IMG/VR virus record: IMGVR_UViG_3300049734_000332
Location: 1 to 44,747 of that record
Reading direction: 5' to 3' (one strand)
DNA: 44,747 nt
DNA from: a virus
In this document: piece after piece, positions 960 to 42,608 of the stretch
How the letters are laid out: each line of letters opens with the position of its first letter
How positions within the stretch are numbered: the first letter of the stretch is position 1
Made by a program: the position numbers and the translations under genes
The notes under the pieces: model-generated
Database searches by the model: none
The model's input: the letters and a program-made list of their open reading frames with translations, nothing else
Told to the model about the DNA's origin: nothing

Positions 960-1616
960 ATGGCTTTCAACTGTGGAGTGTCGTTCGGCGCGTGCCTCGT
1001 TCGGATCACGCGGGTGGACGACAACGGCAACGTCATCGCAGGCGAGAACAGCTATGTGACGGACAAGCCGATCAGCATTTCCGTGAACCCGAACATCGAG
1101 GCCGGCAACAGCTTCAGCGTTCGGAACGGATGCGGCTGCTCCATCTCACGGCGCAAGTTCCCCGACACGTTCAACTGGTGGGAACTCTCGTTGCAGACGG
1201 CGACGCTGGAGCCCGAGATGATCGCGTTCATGCTTGGCGCGAACACGATCACCGACGGAGCCGACGTGGTGGGTGTCGCTTTCCCGTCCGCGCTGGCGTG
1301 CGACGAGGCGTCCCCCGCGGTGGCGTTCGAGTTCTGGAGCGAGCATGTTGTCGGCTCCGGTTTGGACGCGACATACCCGTACTTCCATTGGGTGTTCCCG
1401 TCGAGCGTGTGGCAGATCGGGGACAACACGTTCGAGGAGGGCCCCGCGGAACCGACGCTCAACGGGTTCACGCAGACGAACGGAAACTGGGGTGACGGCC
1501 CGTACGGAGACGGACCCCCGGACGGCGAGGACATCAGCGAGGGCGGGTTCTGGGCCACCAACGACACGTTGCCGACCGCTGAGTGCGCGGCGCAGCCGGT
1601 GACCTCGACCAGTTAA
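960..1616 (+). CDS. Major tail protein (tail tube subunit)
   Basis: ATG start behind a strong AGGAGG site about 10 bases upstream; 218 residues. It has a beta-rich sequence without membrane segments. Features include the run FEFWSEHVVGSG, the aromatic stretch YPYFHWVFPSSVW and a Gly/Asp/Pro-rich C-terminus (residues about 170-200), a pattern familiar from actinophage tail-tube proteins. The best ribosome-binding site in this area suits an abundant protein. Its place right after the head genes supports the assignment. Several cysteines (C5, C11 and a CGC near residue 60) are notable. The minor alternative is another tail-tube-like protein. Confidence 0.75.
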   Translation: MAFNCGVSFGACLVRITRVDDNGNVIAGENSYVTDKPISISVNPNIEAGNSFSVRNGCGCSISRRKFPDTFNWWELSLQTATLEPEMIAFMLGANTITDGADVVGVAFPSALACDEASPAVAFEFWSEHVVGSGLDATYPYFHWVFPSSVWQIGDNTFEEGPAEPTLNGFTQTNGNWGDGPYGDGPPDGEDISEGGFWATNDTLPTAECAAQPVTSTS

Positions 1617-2251: not shown

Positions 2252-5200
2252 GTGGCCGCTCTACGCATATACCGTAGGCTCCAGGATCTCCAGGACGTAG
2301 ACCCCAACGGGCTGCCGAACAGCGGCGTCCCCGTCTACCAGACCGCGGTCTCCAGTTTCGTTGTCCAGACGATCGCGGGGGGCGCAGGCGGCAGTTTCTC
2401 TCTAGGCGCGTCGAACCTCGGTAACACGCTGGGTGACACCGGCGTGACCGGCACCCGTGTGGTGCTGGCCGGGATCGGGAACATCACCCTGAGCCAGCTG
2501 ACGGACGCGAACGGCGGCACCATCTCGATCAGCGGCGCCGGGGGCGCGCAGTCAGTTCAGACGCAGGACAGGTTCAACCTGACCCTGTCCGGCAACACCG
2601 CCGGGGTCTTGCAGCAGGTCTCGAGCGGCACGCTGACGTTGGCGGGCGGCAACAACGTCACGTTGTCGCAGAACGGTAACGCGGTCACGATCAGCGGGGC
2701 CGCACAATCCGTTCAGCCCGAGACCCAAACGTTTCTGGGGGGCGTCAGCGCGTCGGACACGGTGTACACGTCGGGGACCGTCAACATCGTCGGTTCCGGC
2801 GACATCACCGTTTTGTCCGGCACGGGGCAGCGCGTGATCATCAGCGGCTCCCAAAGCGTTCAGCCTGAAACACAAACGTTCGTTGCCGGGATCGCTGGCA
2901 GCAACACCACATACACGTCGGGAACGGTTCGTATCACCGGTGTCGGTGGCGGCGTGACGGTCAGCAGCAACACGGGGCAGCGGATCGACATTTCGGTAGC
3001 GGCGCCCGTGGCACAGACAGGCACCCAGTTCAGCGCCGGACTGTCGAACCTCGGGAACACCGGCGGGGACACCGGCACTGTGGCGGGCCGACTGGTGCTC
3101 GTAGGCAGCAACAACATCACCCTTTCGGGATCCACGAACGGGGTCAGCGAAACCATCTCGATTTTCGGTCAGTCAGGCGGTGGCGCAGGGTTCTCCGCTG
3201 GCGTGTCCGGCGGCAACACATCCGGGGACACCGGCGCGACAGGCACCAGAGTGGTGTTCGCCGGCGGCAACAACATCACCCTGTCTCAGTCAACGAACGC
3301 GAACGGCGGATCGATCACGGTGTCTGCTCCGCAAACATCGGTGCTTTCCGCTGTCGCGCCGCTGTCGACGTCCACGAACGGCCAGACAATCTCGATTCTC
3401 GGGCCACCGTCGTTCAGCGCAGGCGTGTCAACTGTCGGGAACACCCTTGGTGACACCGGCATCACCGGCTCCCGGCTGGTGATAGCGGGCATCAACAACA
3501 TCACGGTGTCGCAGTCCACGAACGCTTCCGGGGGAACAGTCACGATCAGCGGCGCCAACGTCGGGGGCGCCCAAACAGGCATCAGCGGGATCGCGAACAG
3601 CCAGACCACCTACACGTCCGGCACCGTCAGCCTCAGCGAGCTCGGGGCGATCACGATCCGTTCCACCACCGGCAACCAGTTCCAGTTCAGCGTGAACGCG
3701 CAGTCCGCGGAATCTCAGTCGTTCGGCATGAGCAATATCGGGAACACGTCGGGGACAACGGGGATCGCGTCTGGCGCCCAGGTCAGGTTCCTACTCGCAG
3801 GAGGCAACAACGTCACGCTGTCGCAGTCGTTGAACGGCGCGAGCGGCACCATCACGATCAGCGCGTTCAACCAGAGCGTCCAGTCGCTGGGCATGTACGC
3901 GCTCGGCAACACGACCGGCCAGTCGTCCTCGACAACGATGGACGCACGCACGTTGAGCATCCGCGGCGACGGGATCGTCTCCGTCGGGTATTCCAACGGA
4001 TCCCTTCGCATCAGCGCGTCCCAGAGCGTTCAACCAGAAACGCAGACGTTCCTGGGTGGTATCGCGGCGTCCGACAAGACATACACGTCCGGCACCGTGG
4101 TTCTGACCGGCGCAGGAGGCGGCATCACCGTCCAGAGCAACGCGGGCCAGACGATCACGCTCAGCGTGGCAGCGCCGGTGGCCCAGACGAACCAGACGCT
4201 CGGGATGTACGCCGTCCAGAACACCACCGGCCAGTCGTCGAGCACGACGATGGACGCACGCACGATCAGCGTTGCCGGCGACGGAGCCGCCAGCGTCGGT
4301 TACAGCGCCGGTTCTCTCCGCATCAGCGTTCCGTTGCAAACGGTGGAGTCACAGTCGATCGGCATGTCGAACGTCGGGAACACCAGCGGCACCACCGGCA
4401 TGGCGTCCGGCGGGCAGGTGCGCTTCGTGTTCGCAGGCGGAAACAACATCACCCTGTCTCAGTCCTTGAACGGAGCTTCGGGGACGATCACGATTTCGGC
4501 TCCGAACCTGGGTGCCGGGGCGATGTCCGCGGGCGCGTCCAACCTGGGAAACACCGCGGGCGCGACAGGCATCACCGGCACCCAGCTTGTCCTGGTAGGC
4601 ACCAACGCGATCAGCCTGTCCCAGACGACGGGGGCGAACGGCGGCACCCTCTCCATCGACGCCCCAGTGACGAGCTCGCTTGTCGGCACGTCCGGCATCT
4701 CAATCTCGACGAACGGGTCGACGATCAGCGTGATGCAAACGACCGGCTCGAGCATCCTGTCTTCGTGGCAGGCGTTCGAGGGTCCGATGGCGAACGGTTT
4801 CCAGGGGCAGGGATCGGTTCATTTCGCCCCGTATCGTGTGCCTGACCTTCAGCATGACCGTGCGCTGGTGGGCCTCCAGATCAGCAACGCCACGAACTCG
4901 TCGAACTCGATCACCCTGTCCGCCCACGTCGGGATTTACAGCCGCAACGGTTCCAGCATCAGCCTGATCTCGTCCACGTCTGGGTCGACGAACTTCTCGG
5001 GTTCCGGCACCGTCGGCTCCTACTCCCTGTACGGAGGGATGCGGTACATGTCGATCCCGTGGACGAACACGCTGACCGAGGGTGACTACTGGATCGGGAT
5101 GCTTGTCCGCACCACGACCGGTGGTGGCGCAGGACACACCATCAACCAGCTTGTCCGTTCCGAGTTCACCGCAGCAACCATCACAGGCTGGTCAGGGCTG

Positions 5201-5365
5201 ATGGGTGCCGCGGCAACGGCGACGGCGCAGCTGCGTCTCGGGCTGGGTGTGTGGTCCGTGACCTCTTCGAGCGTTCCCGGCAGCGCAGCGTTCTCGCACA
5301 TCACCGGTTCCGGGAGCATGGGAATCCGGGAGCCTTATCTGCAACTCAGGAGCGGAACGGTATGA
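2252..5365 (+). CDS. Long repeat-rich tail fibre
   Basis: GTG start, 1037 residues. Residues about 45-830 consist of roughly fourteen imperfect repeats of 40-48 residues. They fall into at least three families: one with GNT-GDTG-GTR-LAGGNNITLSQ, one with TYTSGTV followed by TISG or ISV, and one with MYALGNTTGQSSSTTMDAR. Each ends in a beta strand such as TITISA and many are joined by QSVQPETQTF-type linkers. This suggests a long beta-structured, probably trimeric shaft. The C-terminal 190 residues (from SSWQAFEGP) are non-repetitive and are the likely receptor-binding head. Asn/Ser/Thr/Gly content is very high. It overlaps the next glycosyltransferase gene by ATGA, so the fibre is a plausible substrate for that enzyme (inference). 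Confidence 0.8.
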   Translation: MAALRIYRRLQDLQDVDPNGLPNSGVPVYQTAVSSFVVQTIAGGAGGSFSLGASNLGNTLGDTGVTGTRVVLAGIGNITLSQLTDANGGTISISGAGGAQSVQTQDRFNLTLSGNTAGVLQQVSSGTLTLAGGNNVTLSQNGNAVTISGAAQSVQPETQTFLGGVSASDTVYTSGTVNIVGSGDITVLSGTGQRVIISGSQSVQPETQTFVAGIAGSNTTYTSGTVRITGVGGGVTVSSNTGQRIDISVAAPVAQTGTQFSAGLSNLGNTGGDTGTVAGRLVLVGSNNITLSGSTNGVSETISIFGQSGGGAGFSAGVSGGNTSGDTGATGTRVVFAGGNNITLSQSTNANGGSITVSAPQTSVLSAVAPLSTSTNGQTISILGPPSFSAGVSTVGNTLGDTGITGSRLVIAGINNITVSQSTNASGGTVTISGANVGGAQTGISGIANSQTTYTSGTVSLSELGAITIRSTTGNQFQFSVNAQSAESQSFGMSNIGNTSGTTGIASGAQVRFLLAGGNNVTLSQSLNGASGTITISAFNQSVQSLGMYALGNTTGQSSSTTMDARTLSIRGDGIVSVGYSNGSLRISASQSVQPETQTFLGGIAASDKTYTSGTVVLTGAGGGITVQSNAGQTITLSVAAPVAQTNQTLGMYAVQNTTGQSSSTTMDARTISVAGDGAASVGYSAGSLRISVPLQTVESQSIGMSNVGNTSGTTGMASGGQVRFVFAGGNNITLSQSLNGASGTITISAPNLGAGAMSAGASNLGNTAGATGITGTQLVLVGTNAISLSQTTGANGGTLSIDAPVTSSLVGTSGISISTNGSTISVMQTTGSSILSSWQAFEGPMANGFQGQGSVHFAPYRVPDLQHDRALVGLQISNATNSSNSITLSAHVGIYSRNGSSISLISSTSGSTNFSGSGTVGSYSLYGGMRYMSIPWTNTLTEGDYWIGMLVRTTTGGGAGHTINQLVRSEFTAATITGWSGLMGAAATATAQLRLGLGVWSVTSSSVPGSAAFSHITGSGSMGIREPYLQLRSGTV

Positions 5366-6087
5366 GCGACGAACCCACCATCATCATCGGCGGCGACATC
5401 GGCGTCCACCACAAGAAGCCCGCGAACACGCGGAAACGGATCAAGGACGGGAAGGGCTACCGCGACCTGTCCACCGTCATGGTCGTCCCCACAAGGGGCG
5501 TGATCCCGGCGAGGGTGGTGCAGTCGTGGTTCGACATGGTGCCGATGATGAACCAGCCGTTCGTCCGCATGTTCATCGAACGAATGGAAGTCGCCGCCGC
5601 CTACAACGCCGCCGTCGAGGTGATCCTGAACCACCCCGCCTTGAGCAACTTCAAGTACATGCTGACCGTGGAGGAAGACAACATGCCTCCCCCCGACGGG
5701 CTGCACAGGCTGTTCGAAAGCATCGACGAGTACGCGATCGTCGCGGGCCTCTACTACACCAAGGGCGACGGCGGACAGCCGATGATCTACGGTGACCCGA
5801 AGGGCGTGATGACGTTCCAGCCGCAGGTTCCGAAAGTGAACCAGGTGCAGGAATGCAACGGCACCGGGATGGGGTTCACGCTGTTCGACCTGAACCTGTT
5901 CCGCGACGAGAACATCCCGCGCCCGTGGTTCCAGACTCTGAACGAGTGGACGCCCGAGGGGGGAGCCCGCGTGGGAACCCAGGATCTGTTTTTGATGGGG
6001 AACGCGAGGAGGGCCGGGTACAGGATCGCGTCCGACAACCGCGTCAAGGTCGGGCACTACGATCCCCAGAACCGGATTGTCTGGTGA
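5362..6087 (+). CDS. Glycosyltransferase-like protein (GT-A fold) in the fibre operon
   Basis: ATG start overlapping the fibre stop (ATGA), 241 residues, cytoplasmic. After a basic N-terminus (HHKKPANTRKR) comes STVMVVPTRGVIPARVV at about residue 36. The acidic metal/nucleotide-sugar motif TVEEDNMPPPDGL follows near residue 105, then GLYY and NGTGMGFTLFDLNLF, and a late Asp/His-containing region (TQDLFLMGNARRAGY, KVGHYD) as in family-2-like glycosyltransferases. It probably transfers a sugar to a virion protein such as the fibre just upstream. Donor and acceptor cannot be told from sequence. It is separate from the larger glycosylation cassette at 34.4-38.8 kb. Confidence 0.62.
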   Translation: MSDEPTIIIGGDIGVHHKKPANTRKRIKDGKGYRDLSTVMVVPTRGVIPARVVQSWFDMVPMMNQPFVRMFIERMEVAAAYNAAVEVILNHPALSNFKYMLTVEEDNMPPPDGLHRLFESIDEYAIVAGLYYTKGDGGQPMIYGDPKGVMTFQPQVPKVNQVQECNGTGMGFTLFDLNLFRDENIPRPWFQTLNEWTPEGGARVGTQDLFLMGNARRAGYRIASDNRVKVGHYDPQNRIVW

Positions 6088-6917
6088 GCGAAGCGATCGT
6101 CTGGGGGATCGGCACAGAAGACCCGAACCAGTTCCCCAACTCGGCCACCACAGGCACCCCGGCAGGCTGGGTGCCTGACAGCACCTCCTCGGCGGATATC
6201 ACCCTTGACGACGACGAGGTGCTCGAGGATGTGCGTCTGACGGACAGCGCGAACATCAACGTTGTCGGGACGAACGTGACGGTCAGGCGTTGCGAGCTGT
6301 GGGGCGGCAGGATCATCAACGACTTCGGTCCGTGCGGCAGCGGCCTGCTGGTCGAAGACGTTTCGATCCTGCCTGAGGATCCTCCCGACGGTCCTGTGGA
6401 CGACAGCGAAGGGGTGCTGTCAGGCGGCAGCTTCACCGCCCGCCGCGTCGAGATCAACGGCCGCTCGGAAGGAATCCGGGTTGGCAGCAACGACATTTGC
6501 GGCGCGGTGGTGATCGAAGACACCTATGTGAGGTTGGTGCCCCCGACACCATGCACCGACTGGCACGGCGACGGCATCCAGGGGTTCAACGGGGGCGGCA
6601 TCACGATCAACAACATGACGATCGACATGCGCGAAGGGATGGGAGTGTGCCCTGGCACCGCCCCGTTCTGGTGGCCCTCGGGACAGGGCAACACAGGAGA
6701 CGTTGTGGTCGACCGGTTCCTGGTGATGGGCCAGGGATTCAGCTTCAGGCTGCACATGCCCGGAACTGTCAGCAACCTCAAAGTCGTGGACGACTCCTGG
6801 GAGTTCGGCCCCATCGACGTGACTTGCGCGGGAATCACCTCATGGGAAGCAAAGATCGTAACGATCGACTCTGACTACCGGATCACGTCGGTGGTCGAGG
6901 ACCAACCATGCGAATAA
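6084..6917 (+). CDS. Beta-helix (pectate-lyase-like) virion protein, first paralogue
   Basis: The GTG start overlaps the previous stop (GTGA); 277 residues, no signal peptide. From residue about 12 (QFPNSATTGTPAGWVP) the protein is a right-handed beta-helix-like sequence with rungs such as NINVVGTNVTVRRCELWGG, FTARRVEINGRSEGIRVG and GGITINNMTIDM. It also has CTDWHGDGIQGFNG and FWWPSGQGNTGDVVVDRFLVMGQG. The WHGDGIQ block may hold catalytic or metal-binding residues as in polysaccharide-degrading enzymes. The next gene carries a near-copy of this domain, so the two arose by duplication. It is likely a tail-associated depolymerase or receptor-binding protein. Confidence 0.6.
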   Translation: MSEAIVWGIGTEDPNQFPNSATTGTPAGWVPDSTSSADITLDDDEVLEDVRLTDSANINVVGTNVTVRRCELWGGRIINDFGPCGSGLLVEDVSILPEDPPDGPVDDSEGVLSGGSFTARRVEINGRSEGIRVGSNDICGAVVIEDTYVRLVPPTPCTDWHGDGIQGFNGGGITINNMTIDMREGMGVCPGTAPFWWPSGQGNTGDVVVDRFLVMGQGFSFRLHMPGTVSNLKVVDDSWEFGPIDVTCAGITSWEAKIVTIDSDYRITSVVEDQPCE

Positions 6918-6928
6918 AGGCGGGGAAC

Positions 6929-8101
6929 ATGACACGCAGAACACTCGCGCTGGCCGCGCTCACGCTGATCGTGCTCACCATCCCCGCCGCCGCCGGCACC
7001 TTCGAGCTCCGGCTGATCTCCCAGACCAGCACAACGATCACGCTTGGCTGGGACACCCAACAGGGGATTGTCGGCTACGTGTTCTACGCGAACGGGCAGC
7101 GGATATCGAACACCTGGAACGTGTCACGGACGTCGGTGACGTTCGCGAAAGTCCCTGGTTGTGCGTCCAACTGCTACGAGGTCGAGGACCTGTTGAGCGA
7201 CGGCCGCGCCGCATACCCACACGCCACACCGCCCCCTCCCCCGCCTCCACCGCCTCCTCCCCCTCCTCCCCCTCCGCCGCCTCCGCCGCCTTCTCCTCCG
7301 ACGGGTGATCAGTTCCCGAACCCGGCGACGACCGGGGTGCCCGCCGGGTGGGTGCCGACAGCCACACGGTCAACCGACATCACGTTGGGCACGACCGGGC
7401 AGGTTCTTCAGGACATGAGGCTCACGAACGGAGCCAAAATATTTGTGCGGGCCCAGAACGTCACGATCCGCCGCGTGGAGTTGTTGGGAGGCTCGATCAA
7501 CAACGACGTCACGGCCTGCGGGAACGGGCTGGTGATCGAGGACACGTCGATCCTGCCAACTTCGCCTGGGGCAGCCACCAACGACGGTGAGGGCGTGATC
7601 TCATATGGCGGCTACACCGCCCGCCGCGTCGAGATCAACGGCCGCAACGAGGGGTTCAGAGTCAGCAGCGTCGACCGTGGCTGCGGACCGGTGGTGATCG
7701 AAAACAGCTTCGCGAAGATCGTGCCGCCAACGGGATGCGGCGACTGGCACGGCGACGGCATCCAGGGTTACAACGGCGCCGGGGTAACCGTCCGGAACGT
7801 CACGATCGACATGACCATCGTTGCCGGTTGCGGAGGAACGTCGCCGTTCTGGTGGCCGTCCGGGCAGGGCAACACAGGAACAGTGACCGTTGACCGGTTC
7901 CTGGTGATGGGGCAGGGATACGCGTTCCGTTTGGGGATGCCCGCCACCGTGGCCGGGTTACGGATCGTGAACAACTCATGGGAGTTCGGCCCAACCGACG
8001 TGTGGTCATGCACCCAGATCCCGATCTGGGAAGCGAAGATCGTGACGATCGACCAGAACTACGCGGTCACTTCCATCGTGCGTGACCAGCCATGCAGATG
8101 A
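6929..8101 (+). CDS. Secreted-type protein: Ig/FN3-like domain, polyproline linker, beta-helix domain
   Basis: 390 residues from the ATG at 6929, which has an AAAGG site 8 bases upstream. An in-frame ATG at 6908 would add MRIKAGN and overlap the preceding gene. Residues 1-22 look like a signal peptide (TRRTLALAALTLIVLTIPAAAG). Residues 23-95 form a small FN3-like beta-sandwich (TTITLGWDTQQGIVGYVFYANG). A run of more than 20 prolines follows, then about 265 residues closely related to the preceding protein, including GDWHGDGIQGYNG and PFWWPSGQGNTG. A signal peptide on a phage adhesin-like protein is odd: it may be exported, anchored, or a leftover of host gene capture. The FN3-like part resembles the one at 19755. 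Confidence 0.6.
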   Translation: MTRRTLALAALTLIVLTIPAAAGTFELRLISQTSTTITLGWDTQQGIVGYVFYANGQRISNTWNVSRTSVTFAKVPGCASNCYEVEDLLSDGRAAYPHATPPPPPPPPPPPPPPPPPPPPPSPPTGDQFPNPATTGVPAGWVPTATRSTDITLGTTGQVLQDMRLTNGAKIFVRAQNVTIRRVELLGGSINNDVTACGNGLVIEDTSILPTSPGAATNDGEGVISYGGYTARRVEINGRNEGFRVSSVDRGCGPVVIENSFAKIVPPTGCGDWHGDGIQGYNGAGVTVRNVTIDMTIVAGCGGTSPFWWPSGQGNTGTVTVDRFLVMGQGYAFRLGMPATVAGLRIVNNSWEFGPTDVWSCTQIPIWEAKIVTIDQNYAVTSIVRDQPCR

Positions 8102-8832: not shown

Positions 8833-9420
8833 ATGGCAGTCGCTGAACAGGCCGCGCCGAAACGGAAACGCAGCACCGGCCTGAAACTCGACCTCGGCTG
8901 CGGACAGCGGCCCACCGACGGATTCCAAGGAGTCGACATCGTCGCAGGAGAAGGCGTCGACCATGTTGTCGACCTGTTCCAGTTCCCGTGGCCGTTCCAG
9001 ACCAGCACAGTGAAGGAGGTCGTGTCCAGCCATCTGATCGAGCACATCCCGCACTACCGACCCGAATACGAGGGCGTGGACGGGTTCTGGATGTTCTTCA
9101 ACGAGCTCCACCGGATCTGCAAGAAAAACGCGAAGGTCATCCTTTCGACGCCGTACTGCAAGGCAGACCGCGGGTTCTGGGACCCTTCGCACACCCGGTA
9201 CATCCATGAGGTCAACTTCTACTACCTGAGCCCGGAGTGGCTGGCCGCGCAGAGCCTGACGCACTATCCGATCACCGCGAACTTCGAGGTGGTCACGATC
9301 GACGGGCTGGGGGTGCCCGACGAGATCATGAACCGCAACATGGAGTTGCAGGCTCAGGCCAGGTCTTGGTACTGGAACACGGTGACTGACCTGCAAATCC
9401 AGTTGAAGGCGATCAAGTGA
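8833..9420 (+). CDS. SAM-dependent methyltransferase (class I)
   Basis: ATG start after CGAGGAGACAAA, 195 residues. Motif I of class I methyltransferases, LDLGCGQRP, is at residues 19-27. GVDI supplies the acidic ribose-binding residue (Asp near 37). Later come SSHLIEHIPHY and ELHRICKKNAKVILSTPY, typical of the Methyltransf_11 type found beside glycosyltransferases. A basic N-terminus (KRKRS) precedes the fold. Its place between fibre proteins and connector genes, plus six glycosyltransferase-like genes in the genome, suggests modification of a sugar or virion protein rather than DNA. The substrate is inferred only. Confidence 0.72.
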   Translation: MAVAEQAAPKRKRSTGLKLDLGCGQRPTDGFQGVDIVAGEGVDHVVDLFQFPWPFQTSTVKEVVSSHLIEHIPHYRPEYEGVDGFWMFFNELHRICKKNAKVILSTPYCKADRGFWDPSHTRYIHEVNFYYLSPEWLAAQSLTHYPITANFEVVTIDGLGVPDEIMNRNMELQAQARSWYWNTVTDLQIQLKAIK

Positions 9421-12164: not shown

Positions 12165-12373
12165 GCTTGCGTGCGTTCCTGTATGCCAGTGATGTGCTGC
12201 GGTTGCAGACGGAGGATCGTTTCCACGTGGAAACGCCTGCGGAACGGCCTGCTGCCGCACCTGGTGATATCGCGGCACGCAACACACAGGCGATGGACGC
12301 GCTGATGGGCATGACAAGCGGGGTGCAGGGCGCTCCTGGCGCACGGCGGCAGCCGCGGAGGGCTAGGCGTTGA
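11745..12373 (+). CDS. Tail assembly chaperone, -1 frameshift product (GT-like)
   Basis: The -1 frame continues from inside the upstream gene to the TGA at 12371-12373 and encodes WRNRHHILGRIVLEGG, DNMSLRAFLYASDVLRL and an Ala/Arg-rich tail. This helical, gene-like sequence has no convincing start of its own. The proposed slip is at TGGGGGT (12095-12101): GGG-GGT slips to TGG-GGG and the next codon is TGG (W). The fused product then reads SEQASGG-WRNRHHIL. Such G/GT pairs immediately before the tape measure gene are standard in siphoviruses. An isolated GTG/ATG start for the downstream part is the alternative. Confidence 0.7.
12095..12101 (+). other. Putative -1 ribosomal slippery heptamer TGGGGGT
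   Basis: In the upstream frame the codons are GGG GGT; after slipping back one base they are TGG GGG, retaining good pairing. It sits exactly where sense passes from one frame to the other (after SEQASGG, before WRNRHH). A second candidate, GAAAAAC at 11951-11957, is rejected because it would replace the well-formed helical region with poor sequence. Confidence 0.55.
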
Positions 12374-15342
12374 GCGAACTTATCGCCGAAGCACGTGTTC
12401 TGGTCAGGCCGGACACGACGGCGTTCCGGGCAGAACTCGTCCGTGAGCTGGCTGTTGCTACGCGAGGGATCACGGCGCCGGTGCAGGTGGTGCCGGTGGC
12501 TGGTGCTGGCACCGCCGCTGCCGCTGCGACGACGTTGGCGGGTGCGCAGCGCAGAGTGGCTGATGAGACGCGCGGAGCTGCTGACGCGGCGAAGAACGAG
12601 GCCGCTGAGCGTCGTGCTGCGGCTGCTGCGACGGCGGAGCACACACGTCAGTTGAACCAGTTGCAGCGTGGCGCCGCGGCGTCGGCTTTGGCTTTGACCG
12701 GTGTGCGCGGCGCAACGTTGGCTGCGACGGGCCCGTTCTTGGCGGGCGCGGCGGCGGTCACGGTGTTCGCGAAGTCGATCCAGAGCAGCGCCAACCTCGA
12801 GGCGAGCCTCAACGTGTTCGCCGTCACCGCCGAAGCGACCGCCGACCAGATGGAACGGATCCGCGACGTGGCGATCGAGCTTGGCGCCGACCTGTCATTG
12901 CCGGGTGTGACCGCCCAGTCCGCCGCGGACGCGTTGGCGCAACTGTCGCGTGCCGGACTGGACGTGGAGGATTCCGTGGCGGGTGTGCGGGGCACCCTGC
13001 AACTTGCGACCGCCGCCGCGATCGACAACGAATCCGCCGTGACCTTGGTGGCGAACGCGTTGAACGCGTTCTCACTCGCGGGGGCGGACGCAACCCGTGT
13101 GGCGGATCTGTTGGCCGCAGCCTCGAAAGAGTCGCAAGGTTCGATCGTGGACGTCGGGCTTGCGTTCCAGCAGTCCGCCGCCGCGGCAGCTCAGGCGGGA
13201 CTCACGGTGGAGGACACGATCGCGCTCCTCACAGAGCTTGGGCGCGCAGGGTTGCGCGGCTCCGACGCCGGCACATCTTTGAGGACCGCGCTGATCCGGC
13301 TGATCGCCCCGTCGAAGCAGGCGAAGGAAGCGCTGGAAGGCCTCGGGGTCGCGGTCCGTGACCAGGCAGGGAACGTGCGGCCAGAGGTGTTCGCGGAGAT
13401 CACCGACCAGTTGAACAGGATGACGAAGGCGCAGGAAGACGCGACCCTCGCTCTGATCTTCGGCCAGGACGCGTTCCGTGCAGCCAGCATCCTTGGGCGT
13501 GCCGGGGCGCAGGGGCTGAACGAGATGCGCGAGGCCACACAGGAGGCCGGTGCCGCCGCCGAACTCGCCGCCGCCCGCACACAGGGCTTGGCGGGCGCGT
13601 TCGAGAACCTGAAAAACCAGGGCGCCACCCTTGGGCTCGCGATCGGTGATGCCGTCAAGGGGCCACTCACCGACTTCCTGAACTTCACAGCGGAGGGCAT
13701 CCAGAACATCAACACGTTCGTCGGGTTCCTTGGACGGATCGCCGGCACCTCGGACGAAGCCGCAGAGTCGATCGGGGATCTCACCTCAAGGGTGAACAGC
13801 CTCTCTGTGTCGGCGGACAACTCCGTTGCGGGCCAGCAGCGGCTGCAGGAAGCGATCAAGGCGGTCCAAGAGGAGTTCGTGAGCCTGATCCAGGAGGCAG
13901 GCAACGTCAACCTCGCGGTCGCGAACCGCGGCGCCGAAGCGGGGCAGGGGCTGCTTGACAGACAGAAGGAAGTCAACGCGGCGCTCGAGGCGACACAGCC
14001 TGCCGCGCTGACCGCCCGCGACGGCATCGAGTCGTATCGCGGGGAGGTAGCCCTTGCAGCAGATGCCGTTGAGGGACTCATCAACAGGATCGACGAAGGC
14101 CGCGACAGGTTCGCGAAGCCGCTGCCGACTCCGCAGGAGCCTGAGCAGCGTCGTCCTCCCACGATCGGCCCGACCGCAAAACTGGACGCCAGAGCACAAT
14201 TGGCTGCTGCACGCGAGGATCTTCAGGCACTGGAACGGGTTCAGGAGGTGCAGCTGGAGAACGCGAAACGGGCGTTCGAGAACAGCAAGGGGAACATCGA
14301 GCAGCGCACCCGGCTGTTCAACGAGGTTGCCGCCGCCGACTCAAGGTTGATTTCCACCAGACGCCAGATCGACGCGAAACAGGACGCCGAGCGGAAGGCA
14401 GCTGCCGCCGAACGGGAACGGCTCGCCCGCGAACGGGAACAGGACGCACGGCAGGAGCAACAGGACCTTGTGGCTTCGCTGGAGCGGGTCAGAGAGGCGC
14501 AGCAGGTCAGGATCACAGACGTTGGCCTGACGGAGTCGCTGCGTGACGATATTCGCGAAACGCAGGATCTGCGGAGACTGATCCAAGACCAGATCAAACT
14601 GGTGCGTTCACAGGTGACGGACGAGCGGACCCGAACCGCCGCGATCGACTCGCTGACTTCAGCGAGGAACGCGACGAACACGGCTTTGAAGCGGTTGGCG
14701 CAAGAGGAACGGGAAGCGCGTGAGGAACGGGCGCAGCAGGCGAAAGACCAGATCGCGGAGAACCTGTCGCTCAGAACCCAGATCGCCCAGGCGAGAGGCG
14801 ACGAGGACGCCGTGGTGGCCGCGTTGGACGCCGAGATCGCGAACCAGCGTAAGCGTGTGGCGGCGGCGAAAAAAGCCGGGGAAGGAGTGCTCGAGGAGAC
14901 ACTGGCGTTGGAGAGGCTGCGGGCCCAGCGGCGCGACCTGCTGGAAGAGGCGAAGGAGGCCGTGACGGGTGGCACCACGCTTGCCGACCTGTTCAATAGG
15001 GCACGCGAGATCGCGGGTGGCGCAGGGAACGTGGGGCAGACAGCGTCGGGCCTGCGTGGGCTGTCCGCGACTCCGCGGATTCAGTCGGAGGTGCAGCAGC
15101 GTCTCGACATTGTCAGCGACCCAGCGAAGGCGGCTGCCGCTAGACAGACGCAGGCGACGAACAACCTGATCACGGCGATCAACCAACTGACGCAGGCGAT
15201 CACCGGGCAGAACGCCCCGGCGAACGGCACCGGCCGCATCACCCGGAGGGACCAGAACGCGTTCCGAAACCTGTCCGAGGAGCAGCGGTTCTTCTACCAG
15301 AAACAAGCAAAAATGATGGTTGAACAGGGACTCGTCGGCTGA
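12370..15342 (+). CDS. Tape measure protein
   Basis: TTG start (TTGA overlap with the chaperone stop), 990 residues, the second-longest protein in the window after the fibre. The N-terminal 120 residues are Ala-rich helix. Residues about 120-400 carry a TP901-type tape measure core (LEASLNVFAVTAEATADQM, LGADLSLPGVTAQSAADALAQL, LTELGRAGLRGSDAGTSLRTALIRL). Weakly hydrophobic segments occur near residues 110-135. From residue about 610 there are long charged coiled coils (AARER, EQDARQEQQDL, EERAQQAKDQIAENL). It sets tail length; at the usual 1.5 angstrom per residue the tail would be near 150 nm. No peptidase or lysozyme motif was seen. Confidence 0.9.
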   Translation: MSELIAEARVLVRPDTTAFRAELVRELAVATRGITAPVQVVPVAGAGTAAAAATTLAGAQRRVADETRGAADAAKNEAAERRAAAAATAEHTRQLNQLQRGAAASALALTGVRGATLAATGPFLAGAAAVTVFAKSIQSSANLEASLNVFAVTAEATADQMERIRDVAIELGADLSLPGVTAQSAADALAQLSRAGLDVEDSVAGVRGTLQLATAAAIDNESAVTLVANALNAFSLAGADATRVADLLAAASKESQGSIVDVGLAFQQSAAAAAQAGLTVEDTIALLTELGRAGLRGSDAGTSLRTALIRLIAPSKQAKEALEGLGVAVRDQAGNVRPEVFAEITDQLNRMTKAQEDATLALIFGQDAFRAASILGRAGAQGLNEMREATQEAGAAAELAAARTQGLAGAFENLKNQGATLGLAIGDAVKGPLTDFLNFTAEGIQNINTFVGFLGRIAGTSDEAAESIGDLTSRVNSLSVSADNSVAGQQRLQEAIKAVQEEFVSLIQEAGNVNLAVANRGAEAGQGLLDRQKEVNAALEATQPAALTARDGIESYRGEVALAADAVEGLINRIDEGRDRFAKPLPTPQEPEQRRPPTIGPTAKLDARAQLAAAREDLQALERVQEVQLENAKRAFENSKGNIEQRTRLFNEVAAADSRLISTRRQIDAKQDAERKAAAAERERLAREREQDARQEQQDLVASLERVREAQQVRITDVGLTESLRDDIRETQDLRRLIQDQIKLVRSQVTDERTRTAAIDSLTSARNATNTALKRLAQEEREAREERAQQAKDQIAENLSLRTQIAQARGDEDAVVAALDAEIANQRKRVAAAKKAGEGVLEETLALERLRAQRRDLLEEAKEAVTGGTTLADLFNRAREIAGGAGNVGQTASGLRGLSATPRIQSEVQQRLDIVSDPAKAAAARQTQATNNLITAINQLTQAITGQNAPANGTGRITRRDQNAFRNLSEEQRFFYQKQAKMMVEQGLVG

Positions 15343-19136: not shown

Positions 19137-19277
19137 ATGGACGAAGAGGTGTTGGAGGAGACGCCCGGGAAAGAGGGCGACGATCAGAAGGCGTCGAAGG
19201 GCGCGCCGGTCGAACCTGTGCGCGGCAAGGACCTGGAGGACGCGCCTGATCTGAAGGACTCGGACGATGACGTCTGA
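19137..19277 (+). CDS. Acidic 46-residue protein
   Basis: ATG start with GGGAGGAACC directly upstream, one of the better ribosome-binding sites here. 46 residues, very acidic (DEEVLEETPGKEGDD, KDLEDAPDLKDSDDDV), predicted disordered, overlapping the lysin gene by 11 bp. Function unknown. The good site and the coupling to the lysin suggest it is translated and may time or chaperone lysin expression (inference). Confidence 0.55.
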   Translation: MDEEVLEETPGKEGDDQKASKGAPVEPVRGKDLEDAPDLKDSDDDV

Positions 19278-19758
19278 GCAGCGAACAGCGATCAGAGGCA
19301 TTCTGAAGCGGTATCTCGAACGGAGCGAGGCGAACAAGGCCGCGATCCACTACAGCCAGTTCCGTCCCCTCACAAGCCTCGGGGACAGCCCGTCAACGGG
19401 GTTCACCACCGACTGCTCCGGGCTCGTGATCAGCGCGTTCTACTGGGCCGACCTGTGGTTGCCGTACACCGTGAAGGACCCTGGTGGGTTCGGGTACACC
19501 GGGTGGGGCTGGACAGGCTCGATCCTGGAGACCAACAAGAAACGCAGGGTGCCGTTGGACCGCAAGTTTTTCGTGGGTGACATGGGGTTGTACGGAACCT
19601 CGTTGGCGCGCACAACACATGTGGTTGTTTGTCGCCGCAACGGTGACGCGATGAGCAGCGTGTGGACAAGCCACGGGAACGAGAAGGGCCCGTACGCGGT
19701 CCGGTTGAACTACCGGCGTGACCTGTTGTGTGTGGTGCGATCGGAGGCTCTGGCATGA
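19267..19758 (+). CDS. Endolysin, NlpC/P60-like cysteine peptidase
   Basis: ATG start, 163 residues. The catalytic Cys lies in FTTDCSGLVISAFYWA (C50), followed by GYTGWGWTGSILETN. The likely catalytic His is in TTHVVVCRR (H118), preceded by the FFVGDMGLYG strand. SHGNEKGPYAVRLNYR (135-150) completes the fold. This arrangement is that of NlpC/P60 peptidase modules in actinophage lysins, which cut peptide stems of peptidoglycan. It has no signal peptide, so release would depend on a holin; several membrane proteins follow. It lacks a cell-wall binding domain, which may be supplied by the next protein. Confidence 0.75.
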   Translation: MTSEQRTAIRGILKRYLERSEANKAAIHYSQFRPLTSLGDSPSTGFTTDCSGLVISAFYWADLWLPYTVKDPGGFGYTGWGWTGSILETNKKRRVPLDRKFFVGDMGLYGTSLARTTHVVVCRRNGDAMSSVWTSHGNEKGPYAVRLNYRRDLLCVVRSEALA

Positions 19759-20291
19759 ACCTACGCAAGACCGCGGAAACAACCGTGTCGATCACCCTTG
19801 GCTGGGACCCTGTGCCGTGCGAGGGCTACCTGTTTTTCAAGGACGGCGTGCGGGTGTCCCGCACGTTCGATCCGGCACGGAACTCGGTGAAGTTCTCGAA
19901 GCCGTACCAGTCGCTGGGTGTGCAGGCGATCGTGTTCACCGTCGTGAACGAAGGCACGTACCCGGGGTCGACGCCGCCGCCGGTCACGTACAAGAAGGTG
20001 GCGCCACGGGTTGCGTACCAGGCCGACGCGAGCGACGCGCGGTACTGCCTGTTCGAGCCGAACGGCCAGCTCCGCCCCGGGCTCGCGTGGATCGACGCGG
20101 CCAACCACGCGGCGGGTGTGCGCGACGAGGTTGCCCAATATGATCTGAACGGGTTGTGTTTGGGTGCGGAACGCACGGGGGGTTCCGCGGCGGACGGGAT
20201 CGTGTCAGCGAAAGAGATCGACGGGAGACCGTTGTGCGAGCTTCCGATGACAGGGGACCCGACACAGAACACGGGAAGTTGGAAGGTGTGA
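19755..20291 (+). CDS. FN3-like module protein next to the endolysin
   Basis: ATG start (ATGA overlap with the lysin), 178 residues. Residues 8-60 (TTVSITLGWDPVPCEGYLFFKDG, then RVSRTFDPARNSVKFSK) are clearly related to the N-terminal domain of the beta-helix protein at 6929 (TTITLGWDTQQGIVGYVFYANG). A TPPPVTYKK linker leads to a second region (YCLFEPNGQLRPGLAWIDAANHAAG, AADGIVSAKEIDGRPLC). There is no signal peptide. Position suggests a cell-wall-binding partner of the lysin or a virion component with a shared surface module. The second half is not recognised. Confidence 0.5.
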   Translation: MNLRKTAETTVSITLGWDPVPCEGYLFFKDGVRVSRTFDPARNSVKFSKPYQSLGVQAIVFTVVNEGTYPGSTPPPVTYKKVAPRVAYQADASDARYCLFEPNGQLRPGLAWIDAANHAAGVRDEVAQYDLNGLCLGAERTGGSAADGIVSAKEIDGRPLCELPMTGDPTQNTGSWKV

Positions 20292-22546: not shown

Positions 22547-23061
22547 AGCGGCCTGTGGCAGCACCGGCAAGTCCGCGGATCGGTTGGCTCGTCGGTGCGG
22601 AGCGCGTCCCTCAACTGGTGGTGGGACAGTCGCTCCGTCTCGGCCCGCTCGAGCCACTCCACCTGCGCGGAGTGATCCACGTTCACCTCCCCCGTGCTCG
22701 TGTCCACCACCTCGAGCGCCGCGACGGCCCGGTGGTGGGACCACGACAGGTTCTCCCGGCGGATCGAGCGTGGCACCTTCTGGGACACGCGGAGGTATTC
22801 GAGCATGCCGGCCTCGCTGATCTGAAGGACCTCAGCGGCCTGCGCTGCTTTGTCCGGGAACTGTGTTTCCCCTAGCAGCAGCCAGTCGCCGATCGCGAAC
22901 CGCAGCGACTGGTGCATCCGGCCCAGCAGGCCGCCGACGGCTTCGTATTCGCTGTAGGTGAGGTCTGGTTTGTGGAGGTACAGGCCGGTGGCTTTGAGAG
23001 CTCCGTTGGCGGCGAGCTCGTCCAGGAGCTTGGTGTGGCGGACAGGCAGCGTCTCGGTCAC
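22543..23061 (-). CDS. ParB-HTH-like DNA-binding protein
   Basis: GTG start (GTGA overlap with the methyltransferase stop), 172 residues. After an unrecognised N-terminus (residues 1-45) comes FAIGDWLLLGETQFPDKAAQ, then AAEVLQISEAGMLEYLRVSQ, KVPRSIRRENLSWSHHRAVAAL and ERLSHHQLRDALR. This resembles the ParB/KorB HTH domain (A-x-L-G-S-V-x-x-VP-R plus an L-x-x-x-H-x-x-A segment). The ParB N-terminal CTPase/nuclease box is absent. The C-terminus ends in a Cys cluster (CRCCHRPL) that may bind metal. It could bind specific sites such as the dispersed palindrome (speculative), or regulate early genes. Confidence 0.5.
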   Translation of the reverse strand: MTETLPVRHTKLLDELAANGALKATGLYLHKPDLTYSEYEAVGGLLGRMHQSLRFAIGDWLLLGETQFPDKAAQAAEVLQISEAGMLEYLRVSQKVPRSIRRENLSWSHHRAVAALEVVDTSTGEVNVDHSAQVEWLERAETERLSHHQLRDALRTDEPTDPRTCRCCHRPL

Positions 23062-23741
23062 GCGGCCACCTTGATGCGATGAAACAACTGTCGTCCGATG
23101 AACTCCGTGTACGCAGGAGGAATGCTCTCGGATAGCTCCTCGAGCGTCATCCAGTCGATCCCCATCGCTTCCCGCTGCTTCGCGAGCGGGATGTCCCAGG
23201 AGCCGATCTCGATCGTGGCGCGAACGAGGCCGGTGCTCTTTCCGGTGCGCGCGACGGAGCGTCCGCCGGGGTAGCGGTCGGGGCCGTTGAGCAGGTGGCG
23301 GCACGGCCAGGTGGGTGGCTCGAGCGGCCAGTTCGTCTCGAACAGCCGGTGCCGTTGCACCTCGAGGGGCGGGTCGAGCATCGTCCCGCACAACTGCACC
23401 GGGTCACGCAAGGGGGCGCCGACGACGTTCTCGATCATGTATGGCAGCCCGGTCGCCTCGACAAGCACGCGGGTGGCGTCGATCAGATCCGGGTACTCGC
23501 CCACGTTGCCGGTGCGCTGATAGGCGGTGAACGCCTGACACGGCGGACTCGCGTGGATCGCGTCGAACAACCTCGCCACCGGCCGCTCCTCAAGAAACAT
23601 GAGGGCGCTGTCCTGGATGAACTCGAACGGGTAGTTCGGCTGGGGCGCAATGTCCACGCCGACGACGTCGAATCCGGCGCGGTGGTATCCCATGGACGCT
23701 CCACCGGCCCCGCAGAACAGATCCAAGAGGCGTGGTTTCAT
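23058..23741 (-). CDS. DNA (cytosine-5) methyltransferase
   Basis: ATG start overlapping the next gene upstream, 227 residues. Motif I DLFCGAGG is at residues 7-14, the catalytic motif IV SPPCQ at 65-69 (C68), and motif VI IENV at 103-106. QRHRLFETNW corresponds to motif VIII. The target-recognition region is short, and the C-terminal half is compact compared with 300-400-residue bacterial enzymes, as in small phage methylases. It would methylate cytosine in phage DNA, most likely against host restriction. Specificity cannot be read from sequence. No cognate restriction enzyme is seen, so it is an orphan methylase. Confidence 0.88.
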   Translation of the reverse strand: MKPRLLDLFCGAGGASMGYHRAGFDVVGVDIAPQPNYPFEFIQDSALMFLEERPVARLFDAIHASPPCQAFTAYQRTGNVGEYPDLIDATRVLVEATGLPYMIENVVGAPLRDPVQLCGTMLDPPLEVQRHRLFETNWPLEPPTWPCRHLLNGPDRYPGGRSVARTGKSTGLVRATIEIGSWDIPLAKQREAMGIDWMTLEELSESIPPAYTEFIGRQLFHRIKVAA

Positions 23742-32312: not shown

Positions 32313-32903
32313 GTGAAGCTGCTACTCGTCACCCTCGCCGCGCTCGCCCTGACAACGGCGGCGCACGCAGGAGAAACGAGAACACAGCAACAACAGAAAC
32401 TCACGCACAGCACCCATGTCATCAGGTTCTTCCAAAACCACCACTGGATGCTCGCCACCCAACACACCCACTGCACCGATGTTCCGTGGACACAAACCTG
32501 CCGGATCGCCCGCGGGCTCCACGCCAAACACCAAGCACGAGCCGCCACGTTACGTAACAGCCTGTGGCGCACGCTGCCGCACACCAACGACTGGCGCACC
32601 AGCGTGACCCTCACCCAACGCATCTACCCCGGCACCAGCCAATGGCTCCTGTTCATCAGCGCCAGAGAAGGCGGCTACGGCCGGTTCGTGATGAACCACC
32701 AAGGCTCCGGCGCAGGCGGCTGGATGCAATTCATGAGATCCACGTTTTACGCGTACATGGACGACGCCCGACAATCCGTGAACGCGAGAGGGTTCACCGT
32801 CCCCGCAAACATATGGACATGGACGCACCCGCTCGGCCAGGCCCTCACGGCCGGGTACATGCGGTACACCGGCAGAGACGGGTGCCACTGGTGTCTGACG
32901 TGA
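32313..32903 (+). CDS. Secreted lysozyme/transglycosylase-like protein
   Basis: GTG start behind GGAGGTTTCC, 196 residues. Residues 1-19 are a clear signal peptide (KLLLVTLAALALTTAAHA, cleaved before GETR). The mature part ends with a soluble lytic transglycosylase-like core: QWLLFISAREGGYGRFVMNH with candidate catalytic E119, then GSGAGGWMQFMRSTFYAYMD and WTHPLGQALTAGYMRY. Two Cys near residues 54 and 63 and two at the end (CHWCLT) may form disulphides. It would cut peptidoglycan outside the membrane without a holin. It lies before the terminase, far from the lysis block, so it is a second, exported muralytic enzyme. Confidence 0.65.
   Translation: MKLLLVTLAALALTTAAHAGETRTQQQQKLTHSTHVIRFFQNHHWMLATQHTHCTDVPWTQTCRIARGLHAKHQARAATLRNSLWRTLPHTNDWRTSVTLTQRIYPGTSQWLLFISAREGGYGRFVMNHQGSGAGGWMQFMRSTFYAYMDDARQSVNARGFTVPANIWTWTHPLGQALTAGYMRYTGRDGCHWCLT
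32547..32560. repeat. Dispersed palindrome copy (ACGTTACGTAACAG)
   Basis: Matches CCGTTACGTAACGG at 12 of 14 bases with the core GTTACGTAAC intact. It is inside the secreted lysozyme-like gene. Confidence 0.6.
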
Positions 32904-41198: not shown

Positions 41199-41982
41199 GC
41201 AGCGCGACGGGAAGCACTGCGTGATCAAGGACTCGGATGGGTTCAACCAGGGCTGCCACGACTCGCGCGCCGACGCCGTGAAACAACTGCGCGCTCTGTA
41301 CGCGAAGGAGGACACCATGACCGCAGCAATCGCTCCGCTCCGTCCGGCGCGGGACTGGTTCTTCCGCGCCGAAGCCGACGGCCCCACCCCACCCACGTTC
41401 ACAGCCGCCGGCGAAGCGTACGGCCACCTGGCGCTGTGGGAAACCTGCCACGCCGGTTTCCTGTCGGGAGAGTTCGGGGAGTGCGTGAAAGCACCCAGGT
41501 CCCCGTCGAACTACCAGTTCTTCCACCTCGGTGCCGTCGAAACCTCCGAAGGCGAAATGGTGGCCGTCGGGAAACTCACGTACGGCACCGGCCACGCCCC
41601 ACTCGGGGTTGGTTTGCAGGCAGCGTCGGCGCACTACGACGACACCGGTTCCGTCGGCGCGTTCGTGCGCGCCACAGACGGCAAGTACGGCGTCTGGTTC
41701 TCCGGCGCCGTCAAGTCCGACCTGTCACCCGAAGGGCTGCGTGACATGCGCGCGAACCCGCAGTCGGGTGACTGGCGATCGTTCAACGGCCAACTCGAGC
41801 TGGTCGCGAGCCTCGCGGTGGTGGTGCCGGGGTTCCCGATCCCACGTTCGCAGCTTGCGCTCGCCGCGTCCGGGGTGGCGTCCCTGATCCTGCCGGGATG
41901 GACGCAGGAGGATCTGGTCGAACCCCGGTCGAAGGAATATCTGCGGCGCCGCGAGTCGCTTTCGTCCGCCGTTCGCGGTTGA
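41182..41982 (+). CDS. Capsid maturation protease
   Basis: TTG start, 266 residues; an in-frame ATG at 41317 would remove the first 45. Those 45 (PWHIEQRDGKHCVIKDSDGF, HDSRADAVKQLRALYAKED) form a small strand-helix module often found at the end of neighbouring head proteins. The protease part starts RPARDWFFRAEADGPTPPTF. It has AYGHLALWETCHAGFLSGEF, LTYGTGHAPLGVG with the likely catalytic His, QAASAHYDDTGSVGAFVRAT and NPQSGDWRSFNGQLELVASL (SGDWR and LELVA). PGFPIPRSQLALAASG is the typical end. It trims the capsid protein delta domain during prohead maturation. Confidence 0.88.
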   Translation: MPWHIEQRDGKHCVIKDSDGFNQGCHDSRADAVKQLRALYAKEDTMTAAIAPLRPARDWFFRAEADGPTPPTFTAAGEAYGHLALWETCHAGFLSGEFGECVKAPRSPSNYQFFHLGAVETSEGEMVAVGKLTYGTGHAPLGVGLQAASAHYDDTGSVGAFVRATDGKYGVWFSGAVKSDLSPEGLRDMRANPQSGDWRSFNGQLELVASLAVVVPGFPIPRSQLALAASGVASLILPGWTQEDLVEPRSKEYLRRRESLSSAVRG

Positions 41983-42608
41983 CCGTCCGGGTCAGGGTTC
42001 AGGCTCACCCCAGCAGAGAACATCTGCGCGGGAGGCTGCTCCACCACATGGTCCCCCTCCTAGCGGACGTGGTGGAGCACTCCTCCCACCCACCCGACCC
42101 ATGGGCAGGCTACAAACAATGCCTCGCCGACCTCCCCGACGAAGGCCATGTCCTGATCGTCCAGGACGACGCGCAACCAGTACCAGGGTTCGCGGACGCG
42201 GTGCAAAAGATCGCTGAGCGGCACCCGGACAAGCCGGTGTGCCTGTGGATGAGCGCGATCCCCGCGAACGCCGCCGCCCGAGCCCGACGCGCCTACGGAC
42301 ACCAGCTGTATGTGCCGCTCGGGCCGGCGCCGTTCGTTCCGTTAGTGTGCGTGTTGTGGCCTGCCAGGGCCGGACGTGCGTTCGCGCGGTGGGCTGAGAC
42401 AGCGTCTCGGCTCACCCGCGCGGACGATGGGAACGTCGCCCGGTTCATGCGACAGACCGGCCAGGAGTTCCTCGTCACGGTGCCCAGCATTTGCGAGCAC
42501 GACGATTTCACGCCGACGGTGAAAGGCGGGAGGGGAGAGTCGCAGGGCCGTGACCGCTCCCGTGTCGCGGCCCTGCTAGCGGATGATGCCAGCCGCTACG
42601 ACTGGTAG
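41979..42608 (+). CDS. Glycosyltransferase-like protein between protease and capsid genes
   Basis: TTG start (TTGA overlap), 209 residues. The protein begins TVRVRVQAHPSREHLRGRLL. HVLIVQDDAQPVPGFADAVQ near residue 62 is a GT-A-like acidic motif (QDD), as in GT25/GT2-type enzymes. CLWMSAIPANAAARARRAYG, then PLVCVLWPARAGRAFARWAE and a C-terminal CEHDDFTPTVKGGRGESQGR follow, the last resembling GT25-like endings. It is the fifth enzyme of this kind in the packaging/head half of the genome, so capsid proteins are plausible acceptors. Confidence 0.55.
   Translation: MTVRVRVQAHPSREHLRGRLLHHMVPLLADVVEHSSHPPDPWAGYKQCLADLPDEGHVLIVQDDAQPVPGFADAVQKIAERHPDKPVCLWMSAIPANAAARARRAYGHQLYVPLGPAPFVPLVCVLWPARAGRAFARWAETASRLTRADDGNVARFMRQTGQEFLVTVPSICEHDDFTPTVKGGRGESQGRDRSRVAALLADDASRYDW

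Follow-up and report, generated by a model that had tools for sequence, protein, structure and literature searches.

Why would a phage carry, among its tail genes, two related beta-helix proteins of which one begins with a putative export signal? The question is raised by a tandem gene pair, here termed P0001 and P0002, in IMG/VR virus record IMGVR_UViG_3300049734_000332, the 44,747 bases of which are hereafter called the window. Because the pair lies in the tail gene block, one of its members carries an export signal, and its bacterial relatives are found in slime-making gene clusters, infected cells are probably induced by the virus to release an enzyme that acts on the slime around bacteria by cutting or remodeling it. 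We propose, with a probability of about 0.58, that the infected cell makes and exports P0002 as a modular enzyme for degrading or modifying exopolysaccharide (EPS). We infer its export from the sequence, and its activity from fold and genomic context.

Tandem Beta-Helix Genes P0001 and P0002

The helix domains of P0001 and P0002 are identical in 166 of 266 aligned residues (62%, BLASTP E 5e-116), thus the sequence blocks common to both proteins reflect homology and not chance. The preliminary description of this locus, which was made from the letters alone, had reported tandem beta-helix paralogs at 6084-8101, and this is borne out; the shared blocks that it listed (WHGDGIQG, FWWPSGQGNTG, and DRFLVMGQG) are all present. 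The shared stretch is preceded in P0001 by approximately 14 residues. The nonsynonymous divergence of the pair is well below the synonymous one (dN 0.31 and dS 1.02, NG86), and the dN/dS ratios, which are rough with dS near 1, are approximately 0.3 for P0001/P0002 and 0.18 for P0002 and its homolog from another viral locus, L020. Chance open reading frames (ORFs) were rejected by the homology and by dN being lower than dS. A fresh local duplication was rejected as well, since P0002 is closer to the L020 protein (74% identity in the helix-domain alignment) than to P0001 (64%).

In the tree of 12 helix domains, P0001, P0002 and the proteins from viral loci L019 and L020 form one clade with support of 100/99; addition of the long-branched Nonomuraea row leaves this branch unresolved. 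The position of P0001 inside the clade is weakly supported (an open fork, or 80/83), and its branch is longer than that of P0002 (0.48 vs. 0.14). Nine positions are invariant in all 13 aligned helix domains, P0001 included: D145, H147, D149, Q152, R54, R117, W224, and two cysteines. The WHGDGIQG motif includes such family-invariant residues and is a putative active site by conservation; its D-x-H element presumably resembles an epimerase motif.

The GTG start of P0001 overlaps the stop codon of an upstream glycosyltransferase-like gene by 4 bases. The better start of P0002 is the ATG at 6929, which is located behind AAAGGCGGGGAAC and separated by 11 bases from the P0001 stop. Such spacing of the three genes resembles that in a translationally coupled operon.

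Putative Signal Peptide, FN3 Domain and Polyproline Linker of P0002

P0002 is composed of a charged, hydrophobic, AxA-ending segment (MTRRTLALAALTLIVLTIPAAAG), an FN3 domain, 21 consecutive prolines followed by SPP, and the helix, in agreement with the export signal, the small FN3-like sandwich, and the more than 20 prolines noted in the preliminary description. The export signal was assessed by a home-made charge and hydropathy heuristic, not by SignalP, that asks for a net positive n-region, then 11 residues of high mean hydropathy with neither charged nor amide side chains, followed by a small-x-small site; one start rule was applied to all proteins, and helix proteins were excluded from the background. 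At a threshold of 2.0, all 11 phage helix proteins for which a signal peptide is proposed (nine of them independent) pass this test, compared with 10 of 307 background phage ORFs, and the start segments of the passing proteins differ in sequence. P0002 passes the test, whereas P0001 fails, as does a second FN3-bearing protein of the window, encoded at 19755. The predicted FN3 domain of P0002 has seven strands (AlphaFold2 mean predicted local distance difference test, pLDDT, 91.8) and matches known FN3 domains, among them the one in chitinase A1 (Foldseek probability 1.00, best E 2.8e-3). The second FN3 copy belongs to a protein (19728-20291) that follows ORF 19267-19758, by eye a cell-wall peptidase with no match in PHROG; a homolog of the FN3-copy protein is present in L024.

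Predicted Fold of the Helix Domain

The beta-helix was modeled for P0002 alone, using AlphaFold2 with eight aligned relatives as input (pLDDT 89.6; predicted template modeling score, pTM, 0.90). The resulting model is a right-handed parallel beta-helix, judged by its VIA-align matches to beta-helix structures (Z up to 18.7). Many of these matches are tied at Z 16.8-18.7, the majority being to polysaccharide lyases, hydrolases, epimerases, and tailspikes, including the PL31 alginate lyase 6kfn (Z 18.7, root-mean-square deviation 3.2, 217 aligned residues), the Sf6 tailspike (17.9), and the epimerases AlgG and AlgE (16.9-17.4, with AlgG at 17.4), as well as PL6 alginate lyases, GH87 glucanases, lacto-N-biosidases, and rhamnogalacturonan lyase. 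The ten top Foldseek matches include PL6 alginate lyases, a Klebsiella phage capsule depolymerase, and a PL3 pectate lyase; among predicted viral proteins, a single match, to an unnamed protein, passes 0.001. A sub-threshold Pfam match to Beta_helix was obtained for P0001 alone (E 0.11). Structure prediction, to which the preliminary description had pointed, makes the fold class clear and does not decide the enzyme class.

Cellular Relatives in Exopolysaccharide Loci

Six cellular loci were obtained from 90 pattern matches in a genome scan, and a plasmid search revealed two clear relatives, from Aureimonas (55% identity) and Nonomuraea (31%; three places, of which the best one was read). All eight clear cellular relatives (L004, L005, and L007-L012) lie among EPS genes, as read from annotation, Pfam, and partly by eye. 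The neighboring genes encode Wzy_C and Wzz proteins, glycosyltransferases, bacterial sugar transferase, and rhamnosyltransferase, and include exosortase-A-associated genes. A Wzy_C match is found 1.1-4.8 kb from the helix gene in six of six genomes checked (in G002, just under the Pfam cut-off, 30.9 vs. 31.7 bits). Wzy_C matches are few, 2-5 per genome of 2.3-7.7 Mb, so that a random place would fall within 5 kb of one in approximately 0.3-1.3% of cases per genome. All eight relatives have export-type starts, and seven pass the signal test, with L011 passing with another start; the starts were chosen by eye. DUF4082 precedes the helix in three of the seven cellular relatives scanned. The phage genes themselves lie in a structural block and not in an EPS locus.

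In samples drawn from the phylum (396 genomes) and from two families (299 and 297 genomes), the gene was found at E 1e-20 or better only in the center genome of each, with at most 6-8 candidates scored in the genomes listed. The helix family is thus rare, and its cellular context rests on eight loci. Left out of these eight were the weaker plasmid matches from Microvirga (L006, E 1) and Deinococcus (E 0.4), a second Microvirga place (E 0.07), and matches from Pararhizobium (E 4e-3 and 8e-2) and Sinorhizobium sojae (E 1e-4). By eye, the Microvirga L006 locus encodes an RTX-type beta-helix with transposase-like genes nearby, and no EPS genes were seen there.

Viral Relatives and Recurrence of the P0002 Front

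A helix search of the phages collection gave no match, and the first two viral scans and the first genome scan, with patterns too specific to the pair, returned nothing for the helix. Subsequently, 26 pattern matches yielded the helix in four viral loci. Three of them, L019-L021, are near-identical and encode proteins that are 74% identical to P0002, with the same signal peptide and FN3 domain and 10-13 prolines; by eye, the gene lies two genes behind a major-capsid-like gene. The fourth protein, L022 from a 147-kb record, is 57% identical, has a signal peptide and a Thr/Pro-rich linker, and its gene precedes a tape-measure-like gene by a few genes. Apart from the helix protein, these phages look dissimilar to that of the window, because none of six proteins neighboring the pair has a match in the examined stretches of L019-L022. 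The helix DNA of L019 (3566-4723) and L020 (4017-5165) is 99.1% identical, yet their proline runs comprise 13 and 10 residues, a difference likely due to repeat slippage in the linker.

The front composed of a signal peptide, FN3, and a linker was identified in the window, L019-L021, L023, L033, L040/L041, and L048, where L040 and L041 are near-identical, and loci from the same contig were merged (L044 and L057 with L023, L060 with L033). Besides the window, five viral lineages have it in their structural block; judged by the major tail protein, four of these are sister phages. An exported protein of this kind had been called unusual in the preliminary description, a claim to be trimmed, as six viral lineages, that of the window among them, have the front, and five of these share the major tail protein. 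A survey of 33 major-tail-protein loci revealed signal peptide-FN3 proteins in six (window, L033, L040, L041, L044, and L048). Among the 20 surveyed loci with at least 8 kb downstream, four have such a protein; none was seen in the other 16, in which some weak signals, as in L030 and L049, were judged false by eye. L053, one of these 16, has FN3 without a signal peptide. Two others of the 16, the sister phages L035 (16187-16579) and L043 (16389-16817), encode small unrelated signal-peptide proteins downstream of the major tail protein; this interval may collect exported proteins.

Three types of C-terminal domains follow the front: the present helix in the window, a second helix family in L023 and L033, and a third domain in L040/L041 and L048, where it sits behind a bacterial immunoglobulin (Ig) domain. 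In L023, the second-family helix occurs twice in tandem, with FN3 on the first copy only. The first and second families are related (hmmsearch E 1e-14 to 3e-4; hhalign probability 97%), and an H-x-D-x-[IVL]-[QF] motif was noted by eye in all three domain types. The second-family helix is also found in L058, behind a signal peptide and a Thr/Pro-rich linker, and in the L059 and L061 proteins, which have no signal peptide and are tail-fibre-like by eye. A related FN3 domain is located at the C-terminus of a Pfam polysaccharide lyase in L053 (13920-14921; PF14099, E 3e-11), in which no signal peptide was seen.

Exchange of Cargo at One Site

The gene order in L033 is that of the window: a long repetitive tail gene, the glycosyltransferase gene, the cassette, a small gene, the methyltransferase gene, and the next conserved gene. 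The cassette of L033 is a single protein with a signal peptide, FN3, 14 prolines, and the second-family helix, and its counterpart in the window is P0001 with P0002. In L032, the glycosyltransferase and methyltransferase genes are adjacent, without the cassette, and L049 has a different protein after the glycosyltransferase. As L033, L032, and L049 differ at this site, it takes varying cargo, with one helix family replacing another behind a similar front. A broader proposal, to which we give somewhat less than even odds, is that phages possess a mobile modular export cassette. In it, a constant front (signal peptide, FN3, and a proline or Ig linker) would carry exchangeable beta-helices out of the infected cell; the cassette would have moved between unlike phages, and bacterial EPS loci would share at least one of its helix families.

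Proposed Function of P0002 and Alternative Explanations

The preliminary description had interpreted the second protein as an exported adhesin or depolymerase, a view that is partly supported. The sequence supports export of P0002, since its divergent phage relatives retain a start of signal-peptide character, and a role directed at polysaccharides, given the beta-helix fold and the EPS context of all eight clear cellular relatives. We suggest that, in the real host, the signal peptide would send P0002 out via the Sec or Tat route, while FN3 and the stiff proline linker would hold the beta-helix catalytic domain off the wall or matrix. The helix would then cut (as a lyase or hydrolase) or remodel (as an epimerase) an exopolysaccharide substrate; a loosened matrix would let progeny spread, or altered sugars would stop virions from sticking uselessly, to the benefit of the phage. 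P0001, which keeps the helix and the putative active-site residues and has no export signal, would act only after lysis or ride on the virion.

Several observations weigh against an exported EPS enzyme. The fold also matches the adhesin PfbA (Z 17.4-17.5), NosD (17.8), and Vag8 in VIA-align; the Foldseek E-values are weak (best 0.015), with SufBCD and pentapeptide-repeat proteins among the top ten. Searches of Pfam, NCBIfam, and PHROG assigned the helix to no family, and no solved structure was found by sequence, the profile search against PDB sequences giving one chance-level match (4peu, E 0.89). At a signal-test threshold of 2.5, L019-L021 and L058 fail, passing only at the laxer threshold, and export covers only one protein of the pair because P0001 is without a signal peptide. 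The third C-terminal domain is not linked by profile (probabilities 11% and 1%) and is helix-like only by eye, which lowers the odds for both the exported enzyme and the modular cassette. FN3 also occurs in phage proteins without a signal peptide (19755 in the window, L024, and L053), and the pair lies between the major tail and tape measure genes, where virion parts are expected.

The last two points also support the chief rival, that P0001 and P0002 are virion tail decorations or fibers with a receptor-binding or depolymerase role, the hydrophobic start of P0002 being unused for export; the tail-fibre-like second-family proteins L059 and L061 agree with it. We regard it as unlikely, given that signal-peptide character is kept in 11 of 11 starts despite their differing sequences, that the cellular relatives have export-type starts, and that, as a matter of general knowledge, an exported and cleaved chain would leave the cytoplasm, where tails are assembled.

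Less probable still is that the exported helix alters the polymer of its own cell, as an epimerase or a lectin-like coat, and thereby, together with the neighboring glycosyltransferase and methyltransferase, hides a receptor and blocks superinfection. Both transferase-like genes lie near the pair, and the AlgG and AlgE epimerases are among the fold matches, but L032 has the two genes side by side without the helix, they may equally serve virion glycosylation, and nothing in this analysis ties the helix to immunity. An auxiliary nutrient gene, by which the phage would have its cells gain energy from the breakdown of plant or microbial polysaccharide in the environment, is the most doubtful explanation: the fold is common to pectate lyases, and a soil virus is reported to encode an active chitosanase (PMC9485262), but the cellular relatives sit in EPS synthesis loci and the phage genes in a structural block.

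Gene Neighborhood in the Window

Terminase, portal, protease, major capsid, major tail, and tape-measure genes were recognized in the window by PHROG searches, and P0001 and P0002 sit in the structural block between the latter two (Table 1). Because the capsid and tail proteins have their matches mostly in actinobacterial phages (Mycobacterium, Gordonia, and Microbacterium), the host is likely an actinobacterium. The gene following P0002 has at its place in L033 a protein of similar size and with similar last residues, although phmmer gives no match between the two.

Table 1. Features of P0001, P0002 and their surroundings, in window coordinates.
Feature	Position	Strand	Remarks
Major tail protein	960-1616		
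Glycosyltransferase-like gene bordering the pair	5362..6087	+	phrog_12406 E 1.3e-4; phrog_1574 E 2.3e-8; homologs in L033, L049, L032
P0001, beta-helix protein without signal peptide, 277 amino acids	6084..6917	+	GTG start
Beta-helix domain of P0001	6126..6914	+	
DWHGDGIQ core motif, P0001	6558..6581	+	
P0002, beta-helix protein with signal peptide, 390 amino acids	6929..8101	+	ORF opens at 6908; ATG 6929 preferred
Putative signal peptide of P0002	6929..6997	+	Predicted AxA-type cleavage site; heuristic
FN3 domain of P0002, stretch modeled	6992..7219	+	AlphaFold2 model
Polyproline linker of P0002	7229..7291	+	
Beta-helix domain of P0002	7310..8098	+	AlphaFold2 model
DWHGDGIQ core motif, P0002	7742..7765	+	Putative active site
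Gene after P0002	8107..8784	+	Compared with L033 counterpart by phmmer
Methyltransferase-like gene	8833..9420	+	PF13489 E 6.5e-4, below Pfam cut-off; homologs in L033, L032
Tape measure	12370-15342		
Second FN3 copy, protein without signal peptide	19755..20291	+	

Upstream of the glycosyltransferase-like gene, a 1037-residue protein with degenerate repeats, Gly/Ser/Thr-rich by eye, is encoded at 2252-5365 and has homologs in L033 and L049. A glucosyltransferase-like gene (41898-42608; phrog_854, E 4.5e-11) directly precedes the major capsid gene; with the one at 5362-6087, it makes two transferase-like genes in the structural block, which perhaps have a role in virion glycosylation. Elsewhere, the window encodes a DNA methyltransferase (23058-23741, minus strand; phrog_363, E 6e-42) and, at 32313-32903, another signal-peptide-bearing ORF of 196 residues that by eye resembles an exported muralytic enzyme.

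Comparison with Known Systems

Phage depolymerases have mostly been studied as virion tailspikes. In full-text literature, with few subscription papers covered, we found no description of an exported modular phage beta-helix protein. Phage beta-helix depolymerases as such are already known, and P0002 would be a variation on them. The tailspikes and capsule depolymerases of Sf6, Dettilon, CBA120 (TSP2), and Kp32 (Kp32gp38) share the beta-helix fold (Z 17.3-18.1) and are encoded in structural blocks; the N-terminus of P0002, at which a tailspike would have its virion-binding domain, consists of a putative signal peptide and FN3, and the helix comprises only approximately 263 residues. The same fold is shared by PL6 and PL31 alginate lyases and the C5-epimerases AlgG and AlgE (Z 16.8-18.7), with 8-16% identity in those alignments.

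Among exported phage endolysins, Lys44 has its own signal peptide, and Ms6 LysA is exported with the chaperone-like Gp1 (PMC6116005). Both resemble the enzyme proposed for P0002 in being phage enzymes sent out by the host Sec route; however, they act on peptidoglycan for lysis, whereas P0002 is a beta-helix protein with relatives in EPS loci. The soil-virus chitosanase is reported to be functional, and a term search of that paper found neither signal peptide nor secretion (PMC9485262).

The closest parallel by description appears to be WceF of Pantoea stewartii, which is a cellular 80-kDa trimer with a right-handed parallel beta-helix of tailspike-like fold and a Tat export signal, is encoded in an EPS cluster, and hydrolyzes EPS (PMC7949094). 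This matches the picture of the cellular relatives, which are EPS-locus proteins with export-type starts; P0002 is phage-encoded and carries FN3 and polyproline. The search of PDB sequences with the helix-family profile found no relative above chance. If the proposed function is true, infected cells would break down or change the matrix around them on behalf of their phage, as a public good in biofilm or soil, and the family would be a source of small EPS enzymes with bacterial relatives that adjoin the polymerase genes of the likely substrate. If the cassette is real as well, phages would swap matrix-degrading specificity in a secreted enzyme as others swap tailspikes.

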